Part shown: positions 40,854 through 53,744 of the stretch, in pieces | How positions within the stretch are numbered: position 1 is the stretch's first letter | How the letters are laid out: every line of letters begins with the position of its first letter | Assembly: GCF_038446525.1 (NCBI RefSeq) | Contig: NZ_CP151792.1 | Location: forward strand, 868,001-932,000 | From: Methanolobus sp. ZRKC5 | Lineage (GTDB): Archaea; Halobacteriota; Methanosarcinia; Methanosarcinales; Methanosarcinaceae | Length of the DNA stretch: 64,000 bases | Reading direction: 5' to 3' | Made by a program: the position numbers and the translations under genes | The notes under the pieces: generated by a model | Database searches by the model: none | What the model was told of the DNA's origin: nothing | What the model saw: only the letters and a program-made list of their open reading frames with translations

Positions 40854-41197
40854 AAAAATAGATTTTCCTGATGCTTGGTTAATATAATTCGCTTTTTTTT
40901 ATTGACCATTGTTAAAAAATATTATCCCAGGCAATTATATATAAAATGCATATATATGTACAATGGACATATAACTGGAAATGTATAATATTAATTATAC
41001 AGCCCTAAGTTTTGTATATTACACAGAGAGTAAAATAATATATTCTTGAAATTTTGACACATATCAGAATAAACAATAATTTAATATATTATATTATCCT
41101 CTATATAATAACGTGGAGATACAATCCGCGTTATACTAATGTGTAGTGCAAATTTTGCACATGAAATACAATACCAAATATGGGAGATATGAAGAAA
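40854..41197 (+). promoter_or_regulatory. Promoter and leader of the chemotaxis operon
   Basis: This AT-rich gap has TATA-like stretches (TATATATAAAATGCATATATATG near 40938-40958 and TATATTATATTATCC near 41085-41099). Three dyads occur: TATATGT/ACATATA around 40951-40972, AACGTGGA/TCCGCGTT (41110-41131) and GTGCAAA/TTTGCAC (41146-41160). The last two would be in the transcript leader just before cheY and could control translation. No gene is seen. Confidence 0.45.
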
Positions 41198-41554
41198 ATG
41201 GTAAAAGTAATGATTGTAGATGATGCTGCATTTATGCGTATGGTCATCAAGGATATACTAACAAAAAATGGTCATGAAGTGGTAGGCGAATGCGTCGATG
41301 GACTTGATGCCGTACAAAAATACCCACAATTAAAACCAGAACTGGTTTTTATGGATATAGTCATGCCAAACATGGAAGGAATCGATGCTCTGAAAAAGAT
41401 AATGGAAATGGATCCAGCTGCAAAAGTGGTCATGTGTTCATCTATTGGACAGCAATCTGTTGTAACTGATGCACTCAAGACCGGCGCTCTTGACTTTATA
41501 GTTAAACCATTTGATGCAGCAAAAGTCCTGGAAGTAATTGGAAAAGTAATCTAA
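41198..41554 (+). CDS. cheY: Chemotaxis response regulator CheY
   Basis: A stand-alone receiver domain: VKVMIVDDAAFMRM with the acidic pair, LVFMDIVMPNMEG with the phospho-acceptor Asp, VMCSSIGQ with the conserved Ser, and IVKPFD with the conserved Lys. It is phosphorylated by CheA and carries the signal to the archaellum motor through adaptor proteins such as CheF. Three ATGs (41180, 41189, 41198) are possible; I take 41198 because GGGAG precedes it and the domain starts there. It is the first gene of the operon; cheB begins one base after its stop. Confidence 0.93.
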   Translation: MVKVMIVDDAAFMRMVIKDILTKNGHEVVGECVDGLDAVQKYPQLKPELVFMDIVMPNMEGIDALKKIMEMDPAAKVVMCSSIGQQSVVTDALKTGALDFIVKPFDAAKVLEVIGKVI

Positions 41555-41555
41555 T

Positions 41556-42662
41556 ATGACTATCAATGCACTTGTAGTCGACGACTCCGCACTCATGCGC
41601 AAGGTTGTCTCTGATATCCTAAAAGAAGACCCTGAAATTAACGTAATAGCTACTGCCAGAAATGGCCTTGAAGCTGTAGAGAAGGTTGAAAAATTCAGGC
41701 CGGACGTAGTTACCCTGGATGTTGAGATGCCGAAACTGGATGGATTACACGCTCTGGGATATATTATGAGCGAATGTCCTACACCAGTTGTCATGTTGAC
41801 AGCGATCGACTCCAGGTCAGCAGAGAGTACACTGAATGCATTTGAATATGGAGCAGTTGATTTCATACAAAAACCATCGGGAAATATTAGTTTAAATATT
41901 GCGGATATTGCTATAGAAATCCGCAAAAAAGTAAAAATGGCATCTAAAGTGGACCTGAAAAAACTCGGGTTCATGGAAGAACACGTGAAAAAGGCACGTG
42001 AAAATGAAGGAAAAACTTTGCGCACTACACAAAAGAAGCAGGTTATTCAGAAGAGCAAACACCATGCCAAAGGTAAGATCATTGCAATTGCGTCGTCAAC
42101 AGGCGGACCGCGTGCACTTGAACAGGTTATACCCAAATTACCGGGTGACCTGAAAGTCCCTGTTGTAATAGTCCAGCATATGCCTGCAGGATTTACAGCA
42201 TCACTTGCACAACGACTTGATGGCCAATCCCAATTGACAGTTACTGAGGCAAAAGATGGGGATGTACTCCATGCAGGGCATGCATACCTTGCACCAGGAA
42301 ACTACCATATGGAGATTGTCTCGAAAGAAAAAGGTGGCTTTTATCATGAAGTCGTTTCACTCAACCAGAAACCTCGTGAACAGGGAGTCAGACCCTGCGC
42401 AAACATACTTTTCAACTCATTAGTCCCAATCTATGGAGCAAACATCATTACTGCTGTTTTAACCGGGATGGGAGCCGATGGGGCTGATGGAATTGAAGCT
42501 ATAAAAAATGCCGGAGGAAAGGCGATTGCAGAGGATGAAAAATCCTGTGTTGTTTATGGCATGCCAAAAGCAGTAGTCCAACGAGGCCTTGCTGATAGCA
42601 TCGTTCCTTTGGACAAAGTGTCGAGTGAAATATTACGGATGTTAAATTCATCTGGTGATTGA
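41556..42662 (+). CDS. cheB: Protein-glutamate methylesterase CheB
   Basis: The 368-residue protein has an N-terminal receiver (ALVVDDSALMRK, VVTLDVEMPKLDGL, MLTA, FIQKPSG) and a C-terminal methylesterase domain with the catalytic Ser in IAIASSTGGPRAL, the His in IVQHMPAGFT and the Asp in TGMGADGADG. It removes methyl esters from receptor glutamates when phosphorylated by CheA, opposing CheR. It is separated from cheA by a perfect palindrome. Confidence 0.96.
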   Translation: MTINALVVDDSALMRKVVSDILKEDPEINVIATARNGLEAVEKVEKFRPDVVTLDVEMPKLDGLHALGYIMSECPTPVVMLTAIDSRSAESTLNAFEYGAVDFIQKPSGNISLNIADIAIEIRKKVKMASKVDLKKLGFMEEHVKKARENEGKTLRTTQKKQVIQKSKHHAKGKIIAIASSTGGPRALEQVIPKLPGDLKVPVVIVQHMPAGFTASLAQRLDGQSQLTVTEAKDGDVLHAGHAYLAPGNYHMEIVSKEKGGFYHEVVSLNQKPREQGVRPCANILFNSLVPIYGANIITAVLTGMGADGADGIEAIKNAGGKAIAEDEKSCVVYGMPKAVVQRGLADSIVPLDKVSSEILRMLNSSGD

Positions 42663-42680
42663 AATGTTTTTGCAAAAAGA

Positions 42681-42699
42681 TAAGATCATTATGATCTTA
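42681..42699 (+). promoter_or_regulatory. Perfect 9-bp palindrome between cheB and cheA
   Basis: TAAGATCAT and ATGATCTTA pair around a single T, 15 bases before the cheA start. In mRNA it forms a short stem just ahead of the cheA ribosome binding site (GGTTGGTG). It may set the ratio of CheB to CheA, be a processing site, or serve as operator. Confidence 0.4.
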
Positions 42700-42713
42700 G
42701 GGTTGGTGTGACC

Positions 42714-44753
42714 ATGGATATGTCAGAATATAAAGAAATCTTTAAAACAGAGTCAGAAGAGCATCTACAACAACTTAATGATTCATTACTTGGGCTTGAA
42801 AAAAATCCTACTGATCTGGAATATATCAATACAATGTTCCGTTCAGCCCATACATTGAAAGGGATGTCAGCAACAATGGGATTCAACACCATTGCAGAGC
42901 TGACACATGAAATGGAAAATTTAATGGACATGGTGAGAAAATCACAAGTAGCAGTTAGTAACGGACTCATAGATATTCTCTTTGAGTGCCTGGATACTCT
43001 CGAAGCACTTGTAGAGACCGTAGATAATGGAGGAGAAGTAGATATCACATCCCTGCAAGCTGCACTTGTAAAAACCATGGAAACTACACTGCCTATGGAT
43101 GAGATCACAGGTTCAATAGCTACAAGTACCAGCGTTATTGAAAATGAGATCAGTAATGAACTGCAAGCTGCTACTGAAACTGTGTCTGAAAATGACCTTG
43201 GATTGTCTGAAAATGAAAAACAGTCAATAGAATGTTCTACATTAGATGGTAACAGAGTTGTATCCTTAAACGTGACCCTTGATGAATCATGTGTGCTTAA
43301 ATCAGCAAGGTCTACACTTGTACTTATCAATGTCACAAAGATGGGAGAAATTATTAAGTGCCAACCAAGTGAGGAAGAACTCGAAGATGAAAAATTTGAT
43401 TTTGAGTTCACAGTAATATTTGCCACAAAAACAACAGATGAAGAGATTATCGGCAATATCTCCAAAATATCAGAAGTTAAAACTGTAATTCCTACTACAA
43501 TCTCCCAAAGCGCATCTGATGACCAAAACGACCAGGAGATAAAAGAGAATAAGGAAGATGTCCAGCAAAGCAGCTCCGGTGTCAAAAGATCAGATGCGGT
43601 CAAAAGCATACAAAGTGTTAGGGTAAATATTGAACGACTAGATAACCTGATGAATCTGGTTGGAGAACTTATCATAAATAAAATCAGATTAAACCAGCTT
43701 GCTTCTGATCTCAATGCAAAGGACCTGGATGAGTCACTTGCAAACCTTGACCGCCTCACAAACGAGATACAGACAGAAGTTATGGAATCAAGAATGGTTC
43801 CTATTGACCAGATATTCAGCAGATTCCCAAGAATGATAAGGGACCTGGCAAAGTCTGAAGGTAAACAAATTAATCTCATCGTCGAAGGAAAAGAGATCGA
43901 ACTTGACAGGACTGTTCTAGATGAGATCGGTGATCCACTTGTACACCTCTTACGTAATGCAGTTGACCACGGAATAGAAGCCGAAGAAGAGCGCACAAAA
44001 CTAGGGAAACCTGTTGCGGGTCTTGTCAGGCTGGCAGCTTCACGTCAGAGAAATAGTGTCCTGATAGAAGTGGAAGATGATGGAAAAGGAATGGATCCCG
44101 CCACTCTAAGAGATATCGCTGTCAAGAAAGGAGTAATGACACGAGAAGAGGTCGACAAACTTTCTGACACAGACGCTTTGAATATCATTTTCATGCCTGG
44201 TTTTAGCGGAGCCAAAACCGTCACCGATATCTCAGGAAGAGGAGTCGGTATGGATGCTGTCAAAACAAAGATAGAAGCCCTTGGCGGAAGCGTAAAGATT
44301 AGTTCCGTACCTGGACAAGGCAGCATCATGAAACTCCAGTTACCACTTACAGTAGCTATTATTCAGTCACTTATGGTAACAGTAGCCGATGAAACATACG
44401 CTATACCACTTGGAAACGTTATCCGTGATGTGGGAATAAAGGCCAGTGATATAAAGACAATAGAAGGAAAAGAAGTTGTTCTTCTAAGAGGCGAAGTACT
44501 CCCATTGTTGAGACTACATGATGTACTCGACTGTACTACAGAACAGGAAGAGAAACAGAATCTCATCGTTGTTGTTGTTGAAAAGATGGGGAACAACATC
44601 GGACTTGTAGTTGACGGGCTTCTTGGTCAGCAGGAAGTAATAATTAAAACACTTGATAACAAAATTTTGAAAAATATGAAAGGATTTGCAGGTGCAACTA
44701 TTCTTGGAGATGGAAGTGTCGCACTTATCCTGGATATTGCTACATTAATCTAA
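42714..44753 (+). CDS. cheA: Chemotaxis histidine kinase CheA
   Basis: The start ATG 42714 (MDMSEYKEIFKTESEEHL) follows GGTTGGTG; the GTG at 42708 is within that site. Domains: P1 phosphotransfer with the His in FRSAHTLKGMSATMGF (His46), a divergent P2-like linker of about 200 residues, P3 dimerisation (VRVNIERLDNLMNLVGELIINKIRL), P4 kinase (HLLRNAVDHGIE, DDGKGMD, GVGMDAVKTKIEALGGSV), and P5 CheW-like domain (AVIIQSLMVTVADETYAIPL). It autophosphorylates in response to receptors and passes phosphate to CheY and CheB. No cheW is present in this cluster. Confidence 0.97.
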   Translation: MDMSEYKEIFKTESEEHLQQLNDSLLGLEKNPTDLEYINTMFRSAHTLKGMSATMGFNTIAELTHEMENLMDMVRKSQVAVSNGLIDILFECLDTLEALVETVDNGGEVDITSLQAALVKTMETTLPMDEITGSIATSTSVIENEISNELQAATETVSENDLGLSENEKQSIECSTLDGNRVVSLNVTLDESCVLKSARSTLVLINVTKMGEIIKCQPSEEELEDEKFDFEFTVIFATKTTDEEIIGNISKISEVKTVIPTTISQSASDDQNDQEIKENKEDVQQSSSGVKRSDAVKSIQSVRVNIERLDNLMNLVGELIINKIRLNQLASDLNAKDLDESLANLDRLTNEIQTEVMESRMVPIDQIFSRFPRMIRDLAKSEGKQINLIVEGKEIELDRTVLDEIGDPLVHLLRNAVDHGIEAEEERTKLGKPVAGLVRLAASRQRNSVLIEVEDDGKGMDPATLRDIAVKKGVMTREEVDKLSDTDALNIIFMPGFSGAKTVTDISGRGVGMDAVKTKIEALGGSVKISSVPGQGSIMKLQLPLTVAIIQSLMVTVADETYAIPLGNVIRDVGIKASDIKTIEGKEVVLLRGEVLPLLRLHDVLDCTTEQEEKQNLIVVVVEKMGNNIGLVVDGLLGQQEVIIKTLDNKILKNMKGFAGATILGDGSVALILDIATLI

Positions 44754-44768
44754 ATATGAGGGAATAAC

Positions 44769-45386
44769 ATGACAGAATTGGATGAAATGGCAAAAGGAGC
44801 ATTTCAAGAAGCAGGAAATATTGGAATGGGCCATCTGGCAACTTCACTTTCAAAGATGGTAAACAGGGATGTAAAAATCGATATCCCTGTTGTTGAGATG
44901 CTCACTCTGGATGAGATCATTGCACGGAGCAATGAAGAGGGAAAAAACAAAAGTGTCGTTGGAATACACCTGCACATGTCTGGTGATGTTGACGGTGGAA
45001 CCCTTATACTGTTCCCTAAATTCTCTGCATTATCATTTTCCGACCTGCTTATGAAAAAGTCCATAGGCACAACCACAAAAATAGAGGAACAGCAAATAAG
45101 AAAACTTCGTGAAATGGGAGTGAACCTCTGTAGTTCCTACATGCGTGTTGTTAATGAGTTCCTTGGTATCAATCTCAAGATAGGAGATCCAAGTATTGAA
45201 GTTAACATGGAAGGAGTCGGCGATTTCATATCAGCTGAGATTGGAAACCTTGCTGACCAGTTCGTGGTTGTTAAAGGTGAATGTCGGTTACCTTCCACAA
45301 ATTCAAAGAATGAATTTAACATGCTTTTCGAGCCTGGAGCTACGGACATAATAATGGCAGCTATCATGAAAAAGATGATGGGATAA
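44769..45386 (+). CDS. cheC: CheC-like phosphatase 1
   Basis: The 205-residue protein has one typical active-site helix (GAFQEAGNIGMGHLATSLSKMVNRDVKIDIP, with Glu, Asn and the trailing Pro of the CheC ExxN...P pattern). In the second repeat (LREMGVNLCSSYMRVVNEFLGINLKIGDP) the Asn is displaced by Val, so that site appears inactive. CheC removes phosphate from CheY-P and works with CheD. Co-transcribed between cheA and the FtsA-like gene, two bases apart from the latter. Confidence 0.88.
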   Translation: MTELDEMAKGAFQEAGNIGMGHLATSLSKMVNRDVKIDIPVVEMLTLDEIIARSNEEGKNKSVVGIHLHMSGDVDGGTLILFPKFSALSFSDLLMKKSIGTTTKIEEQQIRKLREMGVNLCSSYMRVVNEFLGINLKIGDPSIEVNMEGVGDFISAEIGNLADQFVVVKGECRLPSTNSKNEFNMLFEPGATDIIMAAIMKKMMG

Positions 45387-45387
45387 G

Positions 45388-47508
45388 ATGAATAGTGCCC
45401 ATTTTGCTCTGGATATCGGCACAAGGACTGTTGTCGGGCTTATTGCAGGTGATAAACACCTCAATATCAAAGCTGCATGCATACACGAACATAATGAACG
45501 AAGTATGCAGGATGGACAGATACATGATATTGAAAAAGTCGCACAAGTTGTAGATGCAGTCAAAAAAGATCTAGAGAGTCAAATCGGGCACGAATTGTCA
45601 AAAGTTTCAGTTGCAGTTGCCGGAAGAGCCCTGAAAACATCAAAAGCACTGGTTTCGGTAGAAATACCCTACAGAGAGATCACAAGCAGGGATATTTCCG
45701 AGCTGGAATTTGAAGCTGTTACTAGAGCAAGTAAGGAACTTGGAATAGATGAAGGGTTTAATTGTGTTGGATATTCAGTTGTGAGCTATGAACTGGACAA
45801 GCAGAGAATATCCAATATGGCAGGCCAGAAAGGAAGTCATATTTCAGTTGAAGTACTTGCAACTTTCCTTCCGGAAGCTGTGATAAACAGTATGTTTGCA
45901 GTTCTTAAAAGCTGTTCACTTGAATCATACAGTGTTACACTTGAACCAATAGCTGCATTGAGTGTTGCCTTGCCTATCGATATGCGCAAGCTCAACATTG
46001 CACTTGTAGACATCGGAGCAGGTACGTCTGATATAGCTATTACTGACAATGGGACTGTCATTGGATATGGAATGGTACCGGAAGCAGGAGATGAAATTAC
46101 TGATTTTATTTGTGACTATTATCTAGTTGACTTCAAAAAAGGTGAAACGATAAAACAATCCCTTACAAGCCAAGAGACTATAGAACTGGAAGATATTTTC
46201 GGTGTCAAATCAGACGTTCCCGTAAATCAGATTATTTTGGACATAGAAAATGAAGTGGCCAACCTGGCCCTACATATTGCAGAAGAGATCAAATCACTTA
46301 ATAAAAAAACACCAAGAGCTGTTGTCCTTGTTGGTGGAGGGTCACAAACTGCAGGGCTTAAAGAACACCTGTCAAAGCATCTTGAACTTCCAATACAAAG
46401 AATTGGCTCCCGTCTCCCTAAACAGATAGAGGGCTTTGCAGACGGAACTGGGAAAATAAATGGTGCTGAGATGATAACACCCCTTGGCATTGCCATGATG
46501 GGAATTCTGGACCAGAGCATTGAGTTTATAGATGTTTCAGTTAACGGTTCAAACATACACCTGATGGACGTTAACGGTCTTTCCATAATGGATGCACTTG
46601 TCGGAGCAAAGGTAAAAAAACTTTATCCACGCCCGGGAATGGCCCTTAGTTTAAATGTTAACTCTGAATTCCTTGCTATTGAAGGAGAAATGGGAAAACA
46701 TGCAGGAATATTGCTCGATGGAAAAAAAGCGACTCTTGGAGATCCCGTTCACAAAGGTTCAGTTATTGAATTCACAGCTCCCGTGGATGGAAAACATGCA
46801 CAAATAAAGGTAAAGGACCTAGTAGACAAATTGGAAATTCCTTCCAGCGTGAAAATAAATGTCAATGGTAAAAATATAGAACAGAAGCCTTTGGCCAGCA
46901 TAAATAAAAAAATGGTATCTCTTGATGATGATATACCAGACAGATCACAGATAAGCGTCAGGCCTGCCAGTCTTCAGGATTTCCTGGAACAGGAATACAA
47001 TACAAAAGATGCTGAGATGATCAGTGTTACTGTAAATAATCGGATAATGTATTTTGAAAATACAAAATATGTTGTCAAACTAAACGATATTATTGTCGAT
47101 TTATCCAAATTATCCACCCATACCCTTGCAGATGGTGACACTATAAGCATAGAAAGAACTGTGCTTGATAACAAGCTGGAAAATATTCTGGAAAAGCCAG
47201 AAAAAGGCAAAAACATCAGTGTGAACCTCAATGGTGAAGAAATAACATTCAAGGGATCACAGGCGCAAATTATCCTGAATGGGAAAAAAGCGAGTCTTTC
47301 CGATAAAATTAATGATGGAGACACTGTTAAGTTTAAAAAAGGAGAAGAGGCGGACCCTATTCTTTCAGACCTATTTGAATTTATGGATATTCGGAAGGAG
47401 GAACTTGTAGGCAAGAGCATGAGGCTCCTTGTAAACAATATTCCTGCCAGGTTCACTACCCCACTGAAAGATGGAAACAATGTGACTATAGAATTTGTAG
47501 AGGGATAA
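45388..47508 (+). CDS. FtsA-like actin-fold ATPase with beta-rich C-terminal tail, in the che operon
   Basis: The 706-residue protein has the FtsA/MreB/Hsp70-type ATPase fold: ALDIGTRTV at 7-15 (phosphate 1), a SHS2-type insertion at about 90-175, LVDIGAGTSDIAI near 206 (phosphate 2), and VVLVGGGSQTAGL near 312 (adenosine). From about 385 on, several short repeats such as VNGSNIHLMDVNG, LLDGKKATLGD..KGSVIEF and LNGKKASLSDKINDGDTVKF resemble beta-grasp units. No C-terminal membrane-targeting helix, as real FtsA has, is seen. A similar ~700-residue FtsA-like family is found in Clostridia-type bacteria. In archaea FtsA is normally absent. Embedded between cheC and cheR with gaps of one or two bases, it is firmly part of the operon. 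I infer a scaffold or ATP-dependent organiser of the chemosensory or motor complex. Confidence 0.75.
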   Translation: MNSAHFALDIGTRTVVGLIAGDKHLNIKAACIHEHNERSMQDGQIHDIEKVAQVVDAVKKDLESQIGHELSKVSVAVAGRALKTSKALVSVEIPYREITSRDISELEFEAVTRASKELGIDEGFNCVGYSVVSYELDKQRISNMAGQKGSHISVEVLATFLPEAVINSMFAVLKSCSLESYSVTLEPIAALSVALPIDMRKLNIALVDIGAGTSDIAITDNGTVIGYGMVPEAGDEITDFICDYYLVDFKKGETIKQSLTSQETIELEDIFGVKSDVPVNQIILDIENEVANLALHIAEEIKSLNKKTPRAVVLVGGGSQTAGLKEHLSKHLELPIQRIGSRLPKQIEGFADGTGKINGAEMITPLGIAMMGILDQSIEFIDVSVNGSNIHLMDVNGLSIMDALVGAKVKKLYPRPGMALSLNVNSEFLAIEGEMGKHAGILLDGKKATLGDPVHKGSVIEFTAPVDGKHAQIKVKDLVDKLEIPSSVKINVNGKNIEQKPLASINKKMVSLDDDIPDRSQISVRPASLQDFLEQEYNTKDAEMISVTVNNRIMYFENTKYVVKLNDIIVDLSKLSTHTLADGDTISIERTVLDNKLENILEKPEKGKNISVNLNGEEITFKGSQAQIILNGKKASLSDKINDGDTVKFKKGEEADPILSDLFEFMDIRKEELVGKSMRLLVNNIPARFTTPLKDGNNVTIEFVEG

Positions 47509-47510
47509 AA

Positions 47511-48332
47511 ATGCTTAAACCCATTCAAAAAAATGACGATGACTACGTAATCCTAAAAACACTGATACAGAGGAAACTTGGATTTAATTGTGAACAATAT
47601 AAGGACACACACTTTAAACGAAGGCTAGATGTCAGATTGCGTGCAACCAATTCCAAAACATACAAAGACTACGTGAAACTGCTTCAAAGCAGCAACACTG
47701 AGTATCCTGAACTTATGGAAACACTGACTGTAAATGTTACTAATTTCTTCAGGAATGCAGAAGTCTATGATATCGTCGAAAAAGAAGTGTTACCTGCTAT
47801 AATCAAAGCAAAGAACAATGGACTCCGGTCCATACGCATATGGAGTGCAGGCTGCTCTATTGGCGTTGAAGCATACTCGATCGCAATGCTGCTGCACCAC
47901 ATACTGGGTGATGATTTCAAAAATTATAATATCAAAATAACAGGCACTGATATTGATAAAGAAAGTCTGTTAAAAGCCCAGAAAGGTGTTTACTCTGATA
48001 TTGAAATGAAAGATGTAAGACCTGCTTTCCTGAACAAATACTTCACCAGAGAAGAGAACAACTACATAATTTCTGATGAACTTAAAAAAATTGCACAATT
48101 TAAAAAGCAAGACCTTATTTCAGGCCCTAAAATGAATGGTTTTGATGCCGTGTTCTGTAGGAATGTCACCATCTATTTCCAGAAAGAACTTCAGGAACAA
48201 CTCTACATGGATTTCTATAGTGCATTGGGTAAAGATGGATTTTTTGTCATGGGTAAAACTGAGACCTTGATAGGACCTTCTAAAGACCAGTTCAAAGCTT
48301 TCAATTCAAAGGAGCGAATATACCAGAAATGA
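47511..48332 (+). CDS. cheR: Chemotaxis methyltransferase CheR
   Basis: The 273-residue enzyme has an N-terminal helical domain (LIQRKLGFNCEQYKDTHFKRRLDVRLRAT) and the SAM-binding domain with NVTNFFRNAEVY, RIWSAGCSIGVEAYSIAMLL, GTDIDKESLLKAQKGVY and VFCRNVTIYF. It methylates glutamates in receptor signalling domains. It follows the FtsA-like gene after two bases. Confidence 0.96.
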   Translation: MLKPIQKNDDDYVILKTLIQRKLGFNCEQYKDTHFKRRLDVRLRATNSKTYKDYVKLLQSSNTEYPELMETLTVNVTNFFRNAEVYDIVEKEVLPAIIKAKNNGLRSIRIWSAGCSIGVEAYSIAMLLHHILGDDFKNYNIKITGTDIDKESLLKAQKGVYSDIEMKDVRPAFLNKYFTREENNYIISDELKKIAQFKKQDLISGPKMNGFDAVFCRNVTIYFQKELQEQLYMDFYSALGKDGFFVMGKTETLIGPSKDQFKAFNSKERIYQK

Positions 48333-48389: not shown

Positions 48390-49004
48390 ATGAAAGATAA
48401 AATATCAAATCTGACTGAGTTACAGATCAGTGCATTAAGAGAAGTAGTCAATATAGGCGTTGGTAATGCTGTCACTTCTCTTTCAAAAATGATCTCAAAA
48501 GAGATTAAGATAGAAGTACCGGGACTCAAAGTAGAATTGATAGAGAAAGTACCGAATGTTGCAGGCGGAGCTGATACTATTGTATCAGGAGTAATTATGC
48601 ATGTAGCAGGGGATGTAGAAGGATACATAATGATGATGCTTCCCCAAGAAGCCACTGAAACAATATGCAAGACAATTACCACTGAGGTAGATGTCGATAT
48701 TATGAGCCCTCTTAACCAGTCCCTGATAGAAGAGGTTGGCAATATCCTTGCAGGTTCCTATGTCAGCTCCCTTTCAAATTTTCTTGGACTGAATATAAAG
48801 TTGTCACCTCCTATGCAGACTTTTGACATGCTGGGTGCAATAATAGACCATATACTCATAGAAATGAGCGAAAAGGCAGAGCATGCACTACTTTTTGATA
48901 CATTGTTCATGATCGAAGGTAACAGAATGAATGGTATATTCCTGACCTTGTTCGATCCTGATTCGATGGACATTATACTTGAACGGATCGATAAAATGAT
49001 TTGA
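48390..49004 (+). CDS. cheC: CheC-like phosphatase 2 (both active sites intact)
   Basis: The 204-residue protein has ALREVVNIGVGNAVTSLSKMISKEIKIEVP and LIEEVGNILAGSYVSSLSNFLGLNIKLSPP. Both keep the Glu, Asn and Pro of the CheC pattern, so this is the member most likely to be a full phosphatase. It overlaps the next cheC paralogue's ribosome binding region by a few bases (the stop lies 14 bases ahead of its ATG). Confidence 0.9.
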   Translation: MKDKISNLTELQISALREVVNIGVGNAVTSLSKMISKEIKIEVPGLKVELIEKVPNVAGGADTIVSGVIMHVAGDVEGYIMMMLPQEATETICKTITTEVDVDIMSPLNQSLIEEVGNILAGSYVSSLSNFLGLNIKLSPPMQTFDMLGAIIDHILIEMSEKAEHALLFDTLFMIEGNRMNGIFLTLFDPDSMDIILERIDKMI

Positions 49005-49018
49005 CAGGAGTGAGAAAA

Positions 49019-49630
49019 ATGAATATTGTACTTGATAAATTTTATTATGATGCACTGAACGAGGTGGGAAATATAGGAATGGGAAATGCAACCACCGCTC
49101 TTTCACAGCTTGTCGATAAATCAATAAATGTAAGCAGTTCAGCCCTTACATTGCTCAGTGTACAAGACATAAATAATGACACAAACAAAGACAGGATTGG
49201 AGCTATTGTGAGGGTAATGGGTGATATGAACGGAGGGTTCATACTCATAATCAGAAAACAACATTCTGAGGCATTATCTGAAATGCTTCTCAAAGAAAAT
49301 TCCGAGGAGGATAATTATATGAAAACTTCAGCTTTTATTGAAGTTACCAATATACTTGCAGGAAGTTACTACAATGCTCTTTCGAAGTTCCTCAATCTTT
49401 CGATCATACCTTCTATTCCAATAGTATCTGAAGGAAACTCTAATGAGATATTCAAAAAAGCAAAGCTGCATATGAATGGGAAAATCGACCATATTTTCGG
49501 CTTAACTACCCTTTTTGAAGTTGTGGGTGAAGATAAATACCATAGTATGAGCGGTGACATGTACATGTTACTTGATTCAGCTTCATTACAATCTGTACTT
49601 GAAAAGATAGAAGAAATGCGTACGAGATAA
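49019..49630 (+). CDS. CheC-like phosphatase 3
   Basis: ATG at 49019 follows GGAGTGA; the frame could extend to 49001 within the preceding gene. The first helix is ALNEVGNIGMGNATTALSQLVDKSINVSSS: Glu and Asn are kept, the Pro is lost. The second (AFIEVTNILAGSYYNALSKFLNLSIIPSIP) is complete. It is followed directly by cheD, the natural partner of CheC. Confidence 0.88.
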   Translation: MNIVLDKFYYDALNEVGNIGMGNATTALSQLVDKSINVSSSALTLLSVQDINNDTNKDRIGAIVRVMGDMNGGFILIIRKQHSEALSEMLLKENSEEDNYMKTSAFIEVTNILAGSYYNALSKFLNLSIIPSIPIVSEGNSNEIFKKAKLHMNGKIDHIFGLTTLFEVVGEDKYHSMSGDMYMLLDSASLQSVLEKIEEMRTR

Positions 49631-49632
49631 GC

Positions 49633-50106
49633 ATGATTATAGTGGGAATGGCCGATAGCGCAGTAGCGAAAAAACCTGAAAAAATAACGACTCTTGGACT
49701 TGGGTCATGTGTAGGCATTTCGCTGTACGATAAAAGCACTGGCGTTGGCGGGATGGTACACATTATGCTCCCCAGTATTGAGCAGGCAAGGTCAAAAGAG
49801 AACATTGCTAAATTTGCAGACACAGGCATACCTGCACTAATTGACGGTATGGTTGACCTGGGAGCCTATAAACACAGGACAATTGCCAAGATCGCAGGTG
49901 GTGCAAGTATGTTTTCTTTCAATTCCAACGCTCAGCTCAATATAGGAGAACGAAATGTGACTGCTACAAAAGAAACGCTAAAAGAACTTAAAATTCCCAT
50001 TATTGCACAGGATACAGGACTTAATTATGGACGTACTATAATACTTGACACTGAAAACGGAGAACTTACTGTCAAGAGTGCAATCAAAGGCATAAAAACA
50101 TATTGA
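49633..50106 (+). CDS. cheD: Chemoreceptor glutamine deamidase CheD
   Basis: The 157-residue protein has the catalytic Cys in TLGLGSCVGISLYD, the His in GMVHIMLP and the Thr in the usual position later. It deamidates receptor glutamines to glutamates and stimulates CheC. It starts two bases after the cheC paralogue. Confidence 0.95.
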   Translation: MIIVGMADSAVAKKPEKITTLGLGSCVGISLYDKSTGVGGMVHIMLPSIEQARSKENIAKFADTGIPALIDGMVDLGAYKHRTIAKIAGGASMFSFNSNAQLNIGERNVTATKETLKELKIPIIAQDTGLNYGRTIILDTENGELTVKSAIKGIKTY

Positions 50107-50160
50107 TATATATAATTAGTTTAATATATGTGCTGAGTACAAAATATAGGTGGCAACAGG

Positions 50161-51174
50161 ATGTTAACTCCAGATATAACGATAATACACATTATTTTCA
50201 TTTCCATATCAATGGCATGTGGATTTGCGGCTATATATTACTGGGTGAAAGTATACTTAGAAACAAAAAGAGGATCCATTGCCTGGTTGCTTCTTGCACT
50301 CACATCTATATTCCTTATCACATCAGCAATCTTCCCTTCTATTGCAATAAGTTCACAGGATACAGATATTACTGAAACGATATTCCTGTTCTTAGGATTT
50401 TGGAGTTCTGTTTACATTGCTATCTTTGCAGCTGCTGGTTTTTTGATGTTTCAGGCTTTCAGGACAGTGCCAAGGGAAAAGCTTGGAGATTATCTCATAG
50501 AAGGAATGGTATTCACAAAACCACTACACTCGGAAGAAGATATCGAGAATATCCCGGAAGTAGATCAAATATCCACTTTGCTCAAGAGATCCACATTAGT
50601 AGAATATACACCAAAGACCAGATACGAAGATTCTGTTATCGAGATTAGCCTACGTCTTTATGGAGAAATGGTAAATACAGTTCTTGTATCCACCCAACCA
50701 CGTACAGCCATGTATAAGGAAAAGATCGGAGACCTTATGGATATAGGCGCAATGAAGTTCATAGAAATCTCATCTACAAGTGATCAGCTAAGTAATGAAG
50801 ATGGAATTATCAAATTACCAACAGATGAACTTGACAACTTCTTTGAACTTACGAGCAAGCTCCCAAAAGGATGTGCAGTGATCTTTGAACCTATTAGTCA
50901 GCTGCTTCTCACAAAAGGAGAAAAAGAGACCTACGAATTTATGTCAGAAATGGTCGAAAGATTTGCAGCAAATGAACTACTCCTTATTGGAATGATCAAC
51001 AAGGCCGCACATGAAGAGCAAATTGTAGCCAGGTTTGAAGGTTTGTTCTTAAATCTTGCAGAAGAAGAAGGTACAAGAATCCGCCTCATAAAAGGTGGAA
51101 ACGAAGAATACATTCGATTCTACGTTGGAGAGAAATTCTTCATGGACCAAAATGTACACGTTGAACTAGAATAA
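50161..51174 (+). CDS. Membrane protein with three or four helices and DUF835-like cytoplasmic domain
   Basis: The 337-residue protein has hydrophobic helices at about 6-28 (IIHIIFISISMACGFAAIYYW), 38-60 (IAWLLLALTSIFLITSAIF) and 75-98 (IFLFLGFWSSVYIAIFAAAGFLMF). The remaining 220 residues have the feel of the RecA-like DUF835/DUF7504 family: TVLVSTQPRTAMYKEKI, CAVIFEPISQLLLTKGEKETYEFMSEMV, LLLIGMINKAAHEEQIVARFEGLF. No Walker A is present. Such proteins occur in archaeal chemotaxis and signalling clusters. It may couple membrane state to the chemotaxis proteins; role unknown. Confidence 0.6.
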   Translation: MLTPDITIIHIIFISISMACGFAAIYYWVKVYLETKRGSIAWLLLALTSIFLITSAIFPSIAISSQDTDITETIFLFLGFWSSVYIAIFAAAGFLMFQAFRTVPREKLGDYLIEGMVFTKPLHSEEDIENIPEVDQISTLLKRSTLVEYTPKTRYEDSVIEISLRLYGEMVNTVLVSTQPRTAMYKEKIGDLMDIGAMKFIEISSTSDQLSNEDGIIKLPTDELDNFFELTSKLPKGCAVIFEPISQLLLTKGEKETYEFMSEMVERFAANELLLIGMINKAAHEEQIVARFEGLFLNLAEEEGTRIRLIKGGNEEYIRFYVGEKFFMDQNVHVELE

Positions 51175-51191
51175 TTTCAGGAAGGACTTAA

Positions 51192-51818
51192 ATGGGTAAA
51201 GAACTGGATAATTTCACGATAGATGCTTTCAAGGAAATAGGAAGCATAGGCATGGGAAATGCAACTACTTCCCTTTCCAAAATGATAGAGAAACGTGTCC
51301 AGCTTAATCTATCCGATGCCAGGCTGTTCGAACCATCCGCCATCATTGATATGATACCGGACTCAATAACCATGACAGGTATAATGATCCCTATTTACGG
51401 GGACATTAATGGTCTCGCAATGTTATTGTTCGAATTTGGAAATGCTGTTTATCTTAGCAATTTGTTACTGCAAAGCATCGAGCATGATGATGATCCAAGT
51501 ATACATGAATCTGCACTTCTTGAAACTGGAAATATAATTGCAGGATCATATCTTAATTCACTATCATCTTTTCTTGACCTCAAAATAATGCATTCAGTAC
51601 CCGATATAAGCATAGGGCCTATTATGGATATACTTGAAAAGGGGACATCCATAATGGAAAAAGAACCTGCGAATATATTGAATATTGAAACAATGTTTAT
51701 GGTATACTCCTCGGAGAAAGACGTTGGAGCAGGAACCATCTATGGTGATATGTTCCTTTTACTGGACCCACAATCACTCGATAAAATGCAAGGTTCTATC
51801 AGAAATATGTTGGGATGA
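51192..51818 (+). CDS. CheC-like phosphatase 4
   Basis: The 208-residue protein has AFKEIGSIGMGNATTSLSKMIEKRVQLNLS, where the active-site Asn is replaced by Ser and the Pro is lost, so the first site should be inactive; ALLETGNIIAGSYLNSLSSFLDLKIMHSVP is complete. It follows the membrane protein by 17 bases, in the same operon. Fourth CheC paralogue of the cluster. Confidence 0.85.
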   Translation: MGKELDNFTIDAFKEIGSIGMGNATTSLSKMIEKRVQLNLSDARLFEPSAIIDMIPDSITMTGIMIPIYGDINGLAMLLFEFGNAVYLSNLLLQSIEHDDDPSIHESALLETGNIIAGSYLNSLSSFLDLKIMHSVPDISIGPIMDILEKGTSIMEKEPANILNIETMFMVYSSEKDVGAGTIYGDMFLLLDPQSLDKMQGSIRNMLG

Positions 51819-52501: not shown

Positions 52502-53128
52502 ATGATGGACATTGCAATATATTCACTTGTTGATGATATGGTCAGCAAAGCAGGGACCGAAGGTGTTGTAGAATACTGGCTTCGCGTAGGTGAAAGCTAT
52601 GCTGAGAGAATGGGAAAAGAAGCATACGTGGGATGGCCCGCTTTTAATGTGGCAATGAAAGACGGAAGAACCTCATTAACGGTTGAAGGAGCTGTCAATG
52701 TTCAAACCGATCTTGCCATCACTGACAAAGACGGAGATGTCATTGGATATGTCTATGCTTTAAAAACATGCCCTATGGCACCTACCATGGGAAGATACAT
52801 TTCAAGAATTGGACCAATTCCGGATTCTGACACAGATGTTGCAGATAGTTACAACAACCGTATAAGAGATTCCGCTGTTTCAAATTATTGTATTACCCAC
52901 CAGAAATTCAGAGAAGTTGCAGGAAACAACATTACTGTTGCAAAACAGGCACTTGAGTGTCTGCAACTGGCAAATAAAGGAATGACCGGTGAAGTAAAAA
53001 TGGTAACTGACAATCTTTCCAGAATCAATGTAGATGAAAGACACATTAAAAGCATACTGCGTAATGCGTCCTGTGTCTTTGCCCTTATTGTAAAAGGCAA
53101 GAGTGCAGGCGAAGAGATAATTGATTAA
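52502..53128 (+). CDS. C-x39-C-x2-H protein, first of a paralogous pair
   Basis: The 208-residue product starts with MMDIAIYSLVDDMVSKAG and is preceded by AAAGGAGACC and a good TATA element (TATATAAATATAGTATATTT). Residue Cys90 in LKTCPMAPTMGRYI and Cys130-Ile-Thr-His133 in NYCITHQKFREV correspond to Cys87 and Cys127-Met-Met-His130 of the next gene, with the same 40-residue spacing. The layout of conserved C-P...C...H faintly recalls L-2-amino-thiazoline-4-carboxylate hydrolases, but similarity is weak. A metal, haem or ligand-sensing role is possible. Confidence 0.55.
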   Translation: MMDIAIYSLVDDMVSKAGTEGVVEYWLRVGESYAERMGKEAYVGWPAFNVAMKDGRTSLTVEGAVNVQTDLAITDKDGDVIGYVYALKTCPMAPTMGRYISRIGPIPDSDTDVADSYNNRIRDSAVSNYCITHQKFREVAGNNITVAKQALECLQLANKGMTGEVKMVTDNLSRINVDERHIKSILRNASCVFALIVKGKSAGEEIID

Positions 53129-53138
53129 TGGTGATCAT

Positions 53139-53744
53139 ATGGCTGAAAATATAGGCTCAAATCCTTTTGTTGACGTGTCAGTATATCTCTTTTTTGAAGA
53201 TATTTCTGATAAGCAGGGCGTAGAAGGCTTTACCAATTACATGGTAGGACAGGCTGAATCTCTTGCAAAATCCGTACCGGAAGAAGAATATAAGACATGG
53301 GACGATTTCACAAATGCTGTTGTGAACGGAGAATCAGTTCTTTCATCATTTGAAAGCATTGGACAGATCAGCAAGTATGGTTTTGTCACCAATGTCTGTC
53401 CATTCTCCAAGGCTATAAGAGAATACATAAAACGTATCGGTAATTTCAATCCGGTGCATATGGAAGCGACTGACCACTACAATCACACCATACAGCCATC
53501 TGCTGCGCACAGCGCATGTATGATGCACCAGACCTACCGCAAGGAAGTGGCAAAGAGAATAAAGATCGATGGAAAACCACTTCAATATGCACAGATAGCT
53601 GCAAAGGCATATACCGGAAAGATAGCACTTCCTCCTGAATCATGGAAAAAAGTATTACTGGAAAAAGCAGGAATTTCCGAAACTCAGGGATTCATGGAAA
53701 TGAGAGAGAACAGTTGTCTTTATCTGTTATACGTTGAAGAATAA
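53139..53744 (+). CDS. C-x39-C-x2-H protein, second of a paralogous pair
   Basis: From ATG 53139 (behind GGTGATCAT; an ATG at 53121 would overlap the preceding gene) the product is 201 residues: MAENIGSNPFVDVSVYLFFEDISDKQG. It shares with its neighbour the pattern VCPFSKAIREYIKRIG, YNHTI and ACMMHQTYRKEV, at equal spacing. It has more His residues in the middle (VHMEATDHYNHT, AAHS), which could ligate a metal. No signal peptide. The two genes are 10 bases apart and should be co-transcribed from the promoter at about 52445. Confidence 0.55.
   Translation: MAENIGSNPFVDVSVYLFFEDISDKQGVEGFTNYMVGQAESLAKSVPEEEYKTWDDFTNAVVNGESVLSSFESIGQISKYGFVTNVCPFSKAIREYIKRIGNFNPVHMEATDHYNHTIQPSAAHSACMMHQTYRKEVAKRIKIDGKPLQYAQIAAKAYTGKIALPPESWKKVLLEKAGISETQGFMEMRENSCLYLLYVEE

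Follow-up and report, generated by a model that had tools for sequence, protein, structure and literature searches.

The stretch of Methanolobus sp. ZRKC5 DNA analysed here (64,000 nucleotides, positions 868,001 to 932,000 of contig NZ_CP151792.1; hereafter the window) contains a chemotaxis operon whose genes are all found on the forward strand, in the order cheY-cheB-cheA-cheC-X-cheR-cheC-cheC-cheD-membrane protein gene-cheC, where X encodes an FtsA-like actin-fold protein with a beta-grasp tail. X occupies positions 45388..47508 as a stop-free open reading frame of 706 codons starting with ATG, and is single-copy in the 3.05-Mb genome. Directly upstream, cheC1 (44769..45386; Pfam CheC, 2.2e-7) ends one base before X, and directly downstream cheR (47511..48332; Pfam CheR, 1.5e-53) begins after a gap of two bases. 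The remaining members are cheY, cheB and cheA (41180..44753), assigned by Pfam, and cheC2, cheC3, cheD, an unnamed membrane protein gene (50161-51174) and cheC4 (48390..51818), assigned by Pfam, NCBIfam and synteny. CheY, CheB, CheA, CheR and the four CheC proteins are recognized by Pfam and CheD by NCBIfam, and with these neighbors and gaps the membership of X in the operon between cheC and cheR, proposed in the initial annotation, is upheld.

Some further features of the locus deserve mention. The four CheC paralogs (44769-45386 and within 48390-51818) are unusual in number and belong to several deep CheC lineages, and cheC1 lacks the second-site Asn. The position of the 337-residue membrane protein is conserved across much of the Methanosarcinaceae, and neither Pfam nor NCBIfam returned a confident match for it. 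Just past the operon, at 52502-53744 of the window, two proteins of about 207 residues are encoded, which are 81-97% identical across the Methanosarcinaceae and matched by no Pfam model; the pair follows the operon in all the loci of the family that were read and reach that far, with the exception of Methanosarcina and locus L133.

Actin-fold head and beta-grasp tail

Residues 1-375 (45388..46512) correspond to an actin-fold region of the FtsA type, with its 1C/SHS2-like subdomain, as judged by Foldseek and by the FtsA model TIGR01174, which is the best NCBIfam match (3.6e-35, residues 7-353). The whole-chain AlphaFold2 model, obtained from an alignment of 34 sequences, is confident (pLDDT 85.6), and its best match in the PDB is FtsA 7q6f (E 1.9e-29, target-normalized TM 0.83, 392 columns), a superposition in which the 1A/1C/2A/2B layout of FtsA is found; PilM, EutJ and MreB follow in that order, and the Pfam models of FtsA, PilM and MreB each exceed their own cut-off on the protein. 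The nucleotide site comprises a phosphate-1 motif ALDIGTRTV (residues 7-15; 45406..45432) with invariant D9, G11 and T12, a phosphate-2 motif LVDIGAGTSDIAI (residues 206-218; 46003..46041) with invariant D208, G210, G212, T213 and D215, and an adenosine motif VLVGGGSQTAGL (residues 313-324; 46324..46359) with invariant G316-G318. These key residues are unchanged in all 34 aligned sequences, drawn from archaea, Omnitrophota and Bacillota, and the FtsA-type fold with three nucleotide motifs originally read from the DNA is thereby confirmed. The protein most likely binds ATP and may also hydrolyze it.

The remaining 331 residues (376-706; 46513..47505) form, according to AlphaFold, Pfam and Foldseek, a chain of beta-grasp repeats of the ThiS/TGS/ubiquitin-like kind, which modeled alone reaches a pLDDT of 88. 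Five units were delimited, at residues 396-463 (46573..46776), 470-525 (46795..46962), 526-592 (46963..47163), 595-650 (47170..47337) and 656-705 (47353..47502), the last being the best conserved part of the tail. In profile-profile comparisons the units are homologous, all 10 unit pairs being linked at 86-98% probability (94-98% between unit 1 and units 2-5) and the shuffled control at no more than 3.3%. A ThiS Pfam match, which here falls in unit 3, is present in the tail of 26 of 28 family members, and the best Foldseek match of the tail is the multi-ubiquitin protein 9cd2, with TGS 3hvz (TMt 0.71) and ThiS/SAMP1 domains also matching. In the AlphaFold model the last element of the chain is a strand (residues 698-705) and not a helix, and the predicted structure contains neither a membrane helix nor a C-terminal amphipathic helix, in line with the initial annotation, which described beta-grasp-like repeats in place of a membrane-targeting helix. 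Hairpin, helix and 'NG..DGD' elements alternate along the tail, which may be an interlocked chain in which the hairpin of the next unit splits the two halves of each unit, an arrangement suggested by the order of these elements and fitted by the ThiS match, in which profile positions 21-69 align to residues 526-588 around an insertion.

Distribution and evolutionary history

In archaea, a survey covering the family (112 genomes) and the order (186 genomes) found the gene at full length in 24 of the 27 Methanolobus genomes, and a single genome of a further Methanosarcinaceae genus has it too. In a sample of 247 genomes from 96 genera of the phylum only Methanolobus carries it, in agreement with the initial remark that archaea usually lack FtsA. 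All complete archaeal copies are located between cheC1 and cheR, the order cheA-cheC-X-cheR being shared by the 24 Methanolobus genomes and the second genus; the gene, whose possible absence from the che loci of relatives had been considered in the initial annotation, is present in those of almost all related genomes. X is also missing from G055, the single Methanolobus genome in which CheA had no match. The genera g9, g11 and g12 hold the orthologous che operon without X, and since they keep the same operon, X is a movable or losable insert at the cheC1|cheR junction. Where present it is under purifying selection, with a dN/dS against six congeners of 0.08-0.17 overall and of 0.05-0.25 across both halves.

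Two Methanolobus genomes may be of use as natural variants. One (G049; L126, G049:C96) has an intact che operon with no gene between cheC1 and cheR, and represents a natural null. The other, the MAG G052 (L026:1501-2151; G052:C155:6771-7412), harbors an in-frame internal deletion that removes approximately residues 105-595 and leaves 216 amino acids; the deletion coincides with a 10-bp microhomology, the rest of the che operon is intact, and the case is possibly a natural mutant or an assembly artefact.

Outside archaea, a collection scan revealed homologs that span the whole protein, including the tail, in Omnitrophota (37-39% identity) and in Bacillota. In Omnitrophota the gene is present in 15 of 285 sampled genomes, and che genes adjoin it in all 15 loci read, including L048, which is labelled Planctomycetales and falls within the Omnitrophota clade. 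One subclade shows the order cheY-cheC-cheA-cheC-X-comFB-cheR-cheY-cheD-cheB-cheC, and the other cheY-cheC-cheD-cheB-cheA-cheC-X, with no cheR in the locus. CheA, found in 59 of the 285 genomes overall, occurs in 15/15 carriers against 44/270 non-carriers (p = 1e-11, kinship ignored), and 14 of the 15 carriers encode it on the contig that holds X, no more than a few kb away.

In Bacillota the gene was detected in 85 of 149 genomes, and CheA is present in 84 of these carriers compared with 43 of the 64 non-carriers (p = 3e-8, kinship ignored). The association persists within Spo0A-positive and within Spo0A-negative genomes, and sporulation was rejected as the underlying correlate, because Spo0A shows no association when CheA is taken into account. 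Among the 63 loci read, 12 have an isolated cheR upstream of X in the same orientation, in six of them at a distance of 34-203 bp, when well under one such case would be expected by chance; the annotated neighbors at these loci are haem genes or tatC and not the main che operon. The other 51 copies are not beside che genes, and in many Bacillota X is surrounded by housekeeping genes (polA-coaE, aroA, hem). Copies linked to cheR occupy three separate positions on the protein tree, whose backbone is weakly supported. The family, paralogous to FtsA, is mainly bacterial, with linkage to CheA and CheR recurring in Omnitrophota and Bacillota, and the gene can no longer be regarded as a peculiarity of one archaeal operon.

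A ComFB-family gene (PF10719, 1e-26), from a family that has c-di-GMP-binding members, lies between X and cheR in Omnitrophota (L037:10147-10410, L043:10179-10442, L044:7973-8236, L048:10143-10406), and HD-GYP or GGDEF genes follow X in some Bacillota (L206:4277-5440, L204:8745-9863, L056:10187-11851), which together hint at a cyclic-di-GMP thread.

In the tree, most of which consists of Bacillota sequences, the archaeal proteins group with those of Omnitrophota (99-100% SH-aLRT), their sister clade (99% SH-aLRT), and the FtsA-length paralogs that these Bacillota genomes also encode are placed as a very distant outgroup. Given this shape and the narrow spread in archaea, transfer probably proceeded from bacteria to archaea, and the simplest account is a horizontal gain into a resident che operon by an ancestor that Methanolobus shares with its sister genus, followed by losses. 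Three related ideas were discarded. Recent arrival of the whole che operon from Omnitrophota is unsupported by CheA, which in the Methanosarcinaceae forms a clade of its own with carriers and non-carriers mixed, although an ancient connection with Omnitrophota CheA (84% support) may exist. Arrival of X and CheC as a pair is likewise unsupported, because the archaeal CheC1 also occurs in relatives lacking X and groups with them, as expected of vertical descent. Finally, no weight is given to a special inactive CheC as constant partner, since the second-site Asn is missing from the CheC proteins adjoining X and from some others as well. The adjoining CheC proteins belong to at least two different lineages, so that the CheC neighborhood is a recurrent one.

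A putative role in chemotactic adaptation

CheR and CheC, which act on the adaptation side of chemotaxis, are the constant neighbors of X in the three phyla: cheR is 2 bp away in Methanolobus, follows via comFB in one Omnitrophota clade and is located upstream in Bacillota, and cheC lies directly upstream in archaea and most Omnitrophota. On the basis of these neighbors and their function, we hypothesize that the protein is most likely a nucleotide-switched scaffold or regulator of adaptation enzymes or arrays. Taken as a whole, the reading of X as a horizontally acquired accessory component of chemotaxis, in which an actin-fold domain and five beta-grasp repeats constitute an ATP-binding scaffold for adaptation enzymes, is one we hold with moderate confidence. 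The protein would be cytoplasmic or peripheral, because no membrane helix is predicted. Its head would self-associate or dock on an envelope or array partner under nucleotide control, and the tail would hold chemotaxis proteins, the likeliest clients being the methylation/adaptation enzymes, CheR first and CheC second. Self-assembly of the head is plausible by analogy, since FtsA polymerizes and the best fold match, 7q6f, is an FtsA double filament; the scaffolding role is likewise suggested by analogy, and we infer the partners from gene order. Array organization and a link to the archaellum or the cell pole, both raised in the initial annotation, are conjectural, as is the label ATPase, and the findings single out no role at the archaellum. 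A stronger version, in which an actin-type cytoskeletal element would, by ATP-dependent assembly, construct or place the adaptation module (CheR/CheC/CheD) or entire receptor arrays in bacteria and archaea alike, with the ubiquitin-like tail as adaptor, is more speculative and seems to us doubtful.

Some observations count against a chemotaxis role. The gene is dispensable for upkeep of the che operon, as seen in g9, g11, g12 and G049 and in the internally deleted Methanolobus copy, most Bacillota copies are away from che genes, and cheR is missing from the loci of one Omnitrophota subclade. The co-occurrence with CheA is also partly confounded by phylogeny and not separable from flagellar motility.

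Alternative readings and relation to known systems

The alternative that survives best, although we consider it rather unlikely, is a motor adaptor that, working as PilM does with PilN, would connect CheC/CheY output to a type IV-filament machine, namely the archaellum in Methanolobus and type IV pili in Omnitrophota. PilM belongs to the same superfamily and is the next fold after FtsA, the protein exceeds the cut-off of Pfam PilM_2 (PF11104; 37.8 bits, cut-off 27), and in Omnitrophota L043 (163-4198) the che operon comes directly after genes for PilC, a PilM/PilN fusion, PilO and a pilin. L043, however, has a separate true PilM, so that the FtsA-like protein is not it; the score against NCBIfam pilM (TIGR01175) is 47.2 bits for a cut-off of 133, the Methanolobus che operon contains no pil genes and no PilN/O/P or PilN-like partners, and the annotated neighbors in Bacillota showed no linkage to pil genes.

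A division or shape protein, that is, an FtsA paralog placing division or envelope machinery and residing with che genes for regulatory convenience, is less probable still. FtsA is the best match in both profile and fold, sharing the extra subdomain and intact nucleotide motifs, and the housekeeping surroundings of many Bacillota copies are compatible with such a role. Nevertheless, the TIGR01174 score of 121.7 bits is below the FtsA equivalog cut-off of 175.85, five beta-grasp repeats stand where FtsA has a linker and an amphipathic helix, and the context is che and not ftsZ. In addition, D276 and E289 are found opposite E. coli FtsA R286 and R300, the arginines that contact FtsZ, so that these are apparently not kept, the pairwise alignment being of low similarity and the column variable in relatives. 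The Bacillota genomes checked (L080-L082) also hold separate FtsA-length paralogs of 431-455 amino acids, carriers in this phylum almost invariably possess CheA, and almost all sampled archaea divide without the gene. A canonical FtsA in an archaeon is ruled out by the sub-cut-off score, the tail and the paralogy, and MreB/Mbl (TIGR00904) scores 25.3, far below its cut-off of 365.75. By the tests made the protein is neither FtsA nor PilM, and represents a separate family without a name of its own, within the FtsA/PilM branch of actin-fold proteins.

It is very unlikely that X is a passenger, a horizontally acquired FtsA paralog that landed in che operons by chance and has no part in chemotaxis. 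Its patchy occurrence in Methanosarcinaceae and the natural deletions would suit this view, but purifying selection, retention at one and the same position in 24 of the 27 Methanolobus genomes and recurrence of che/cheR linkage in two other phyla speak against it; conservation at cheC|cheR, low dN/dS and the che linkage in Omnitrophota amount to more than chance. Hardly credible either is a EutJ/reactivase-like or Hsp70-like chaperone for a chemotaxis enzyme or a corrinoid/methyl-transfer enzyme, whose ATPase cycle would remodel a client with the ubiquitin-like tail as binding or decoy arm: EutJ family profiles (3e-13 to 2e-14), a EutJ fold match and the nearby CheR, a SAM methyltransferase, are in its favor, but FtsA is far better in sequence and fold, extra subdomain included, and the EutJ cut-offs are missed by far.

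The preferred reading, an accessory scaffold of chemotaxis, combines a new architecture, an actin-like ATPase relative with a beta-grasp tail, with a recurrent chemotaxis association. To our knowledge, standard chemotaxis systems do not include an actin-fold protein, and our literature search, which covered few subscription papers, found no paper joining the protein described here to chemotaxis, although earlier notice elsewhere may exist. Recurrence in CheA-bearing Bacillota, in Omnitrophota che operons and in an archaeal locus of the same kind suggests a missed accessory, indicated in archaea and bacteria even though chemotaxis is among the best-dissected signaling systems. It also provides a concrete function to seek for many Bacillota proteins recognized by nothing more specific than the generic FtsA/PilM/MreB models, and the archaeon probably uses a relative of FtsA for a purpose other than division.

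Among known systems, the tail repeats share the beta-grasp fold with bacterial multi-ubiquitin-like proteins and ThiS/MoaD/TGS domains, but they are fused to an actin-fold head and no conjugation genes are found in the che operon. Regarding array placement, archaeal MinD4 is an accessory protein that places chemotaxis arrays and would be a functional analogue of the accessory proposed here. Likewise, in Vibrio, ParP is described as tethering arrays to the polar anchor ParC (PMC5706961), and as an array-placing accessory this pair is at most a functional analogue, positioning by the FtsA-like protein being conjectural. The ATPases of both systems are of the ParA/MinD (Walker) type, unrelated in sequence to the actin-fold protein encoded between cheC and cheR.
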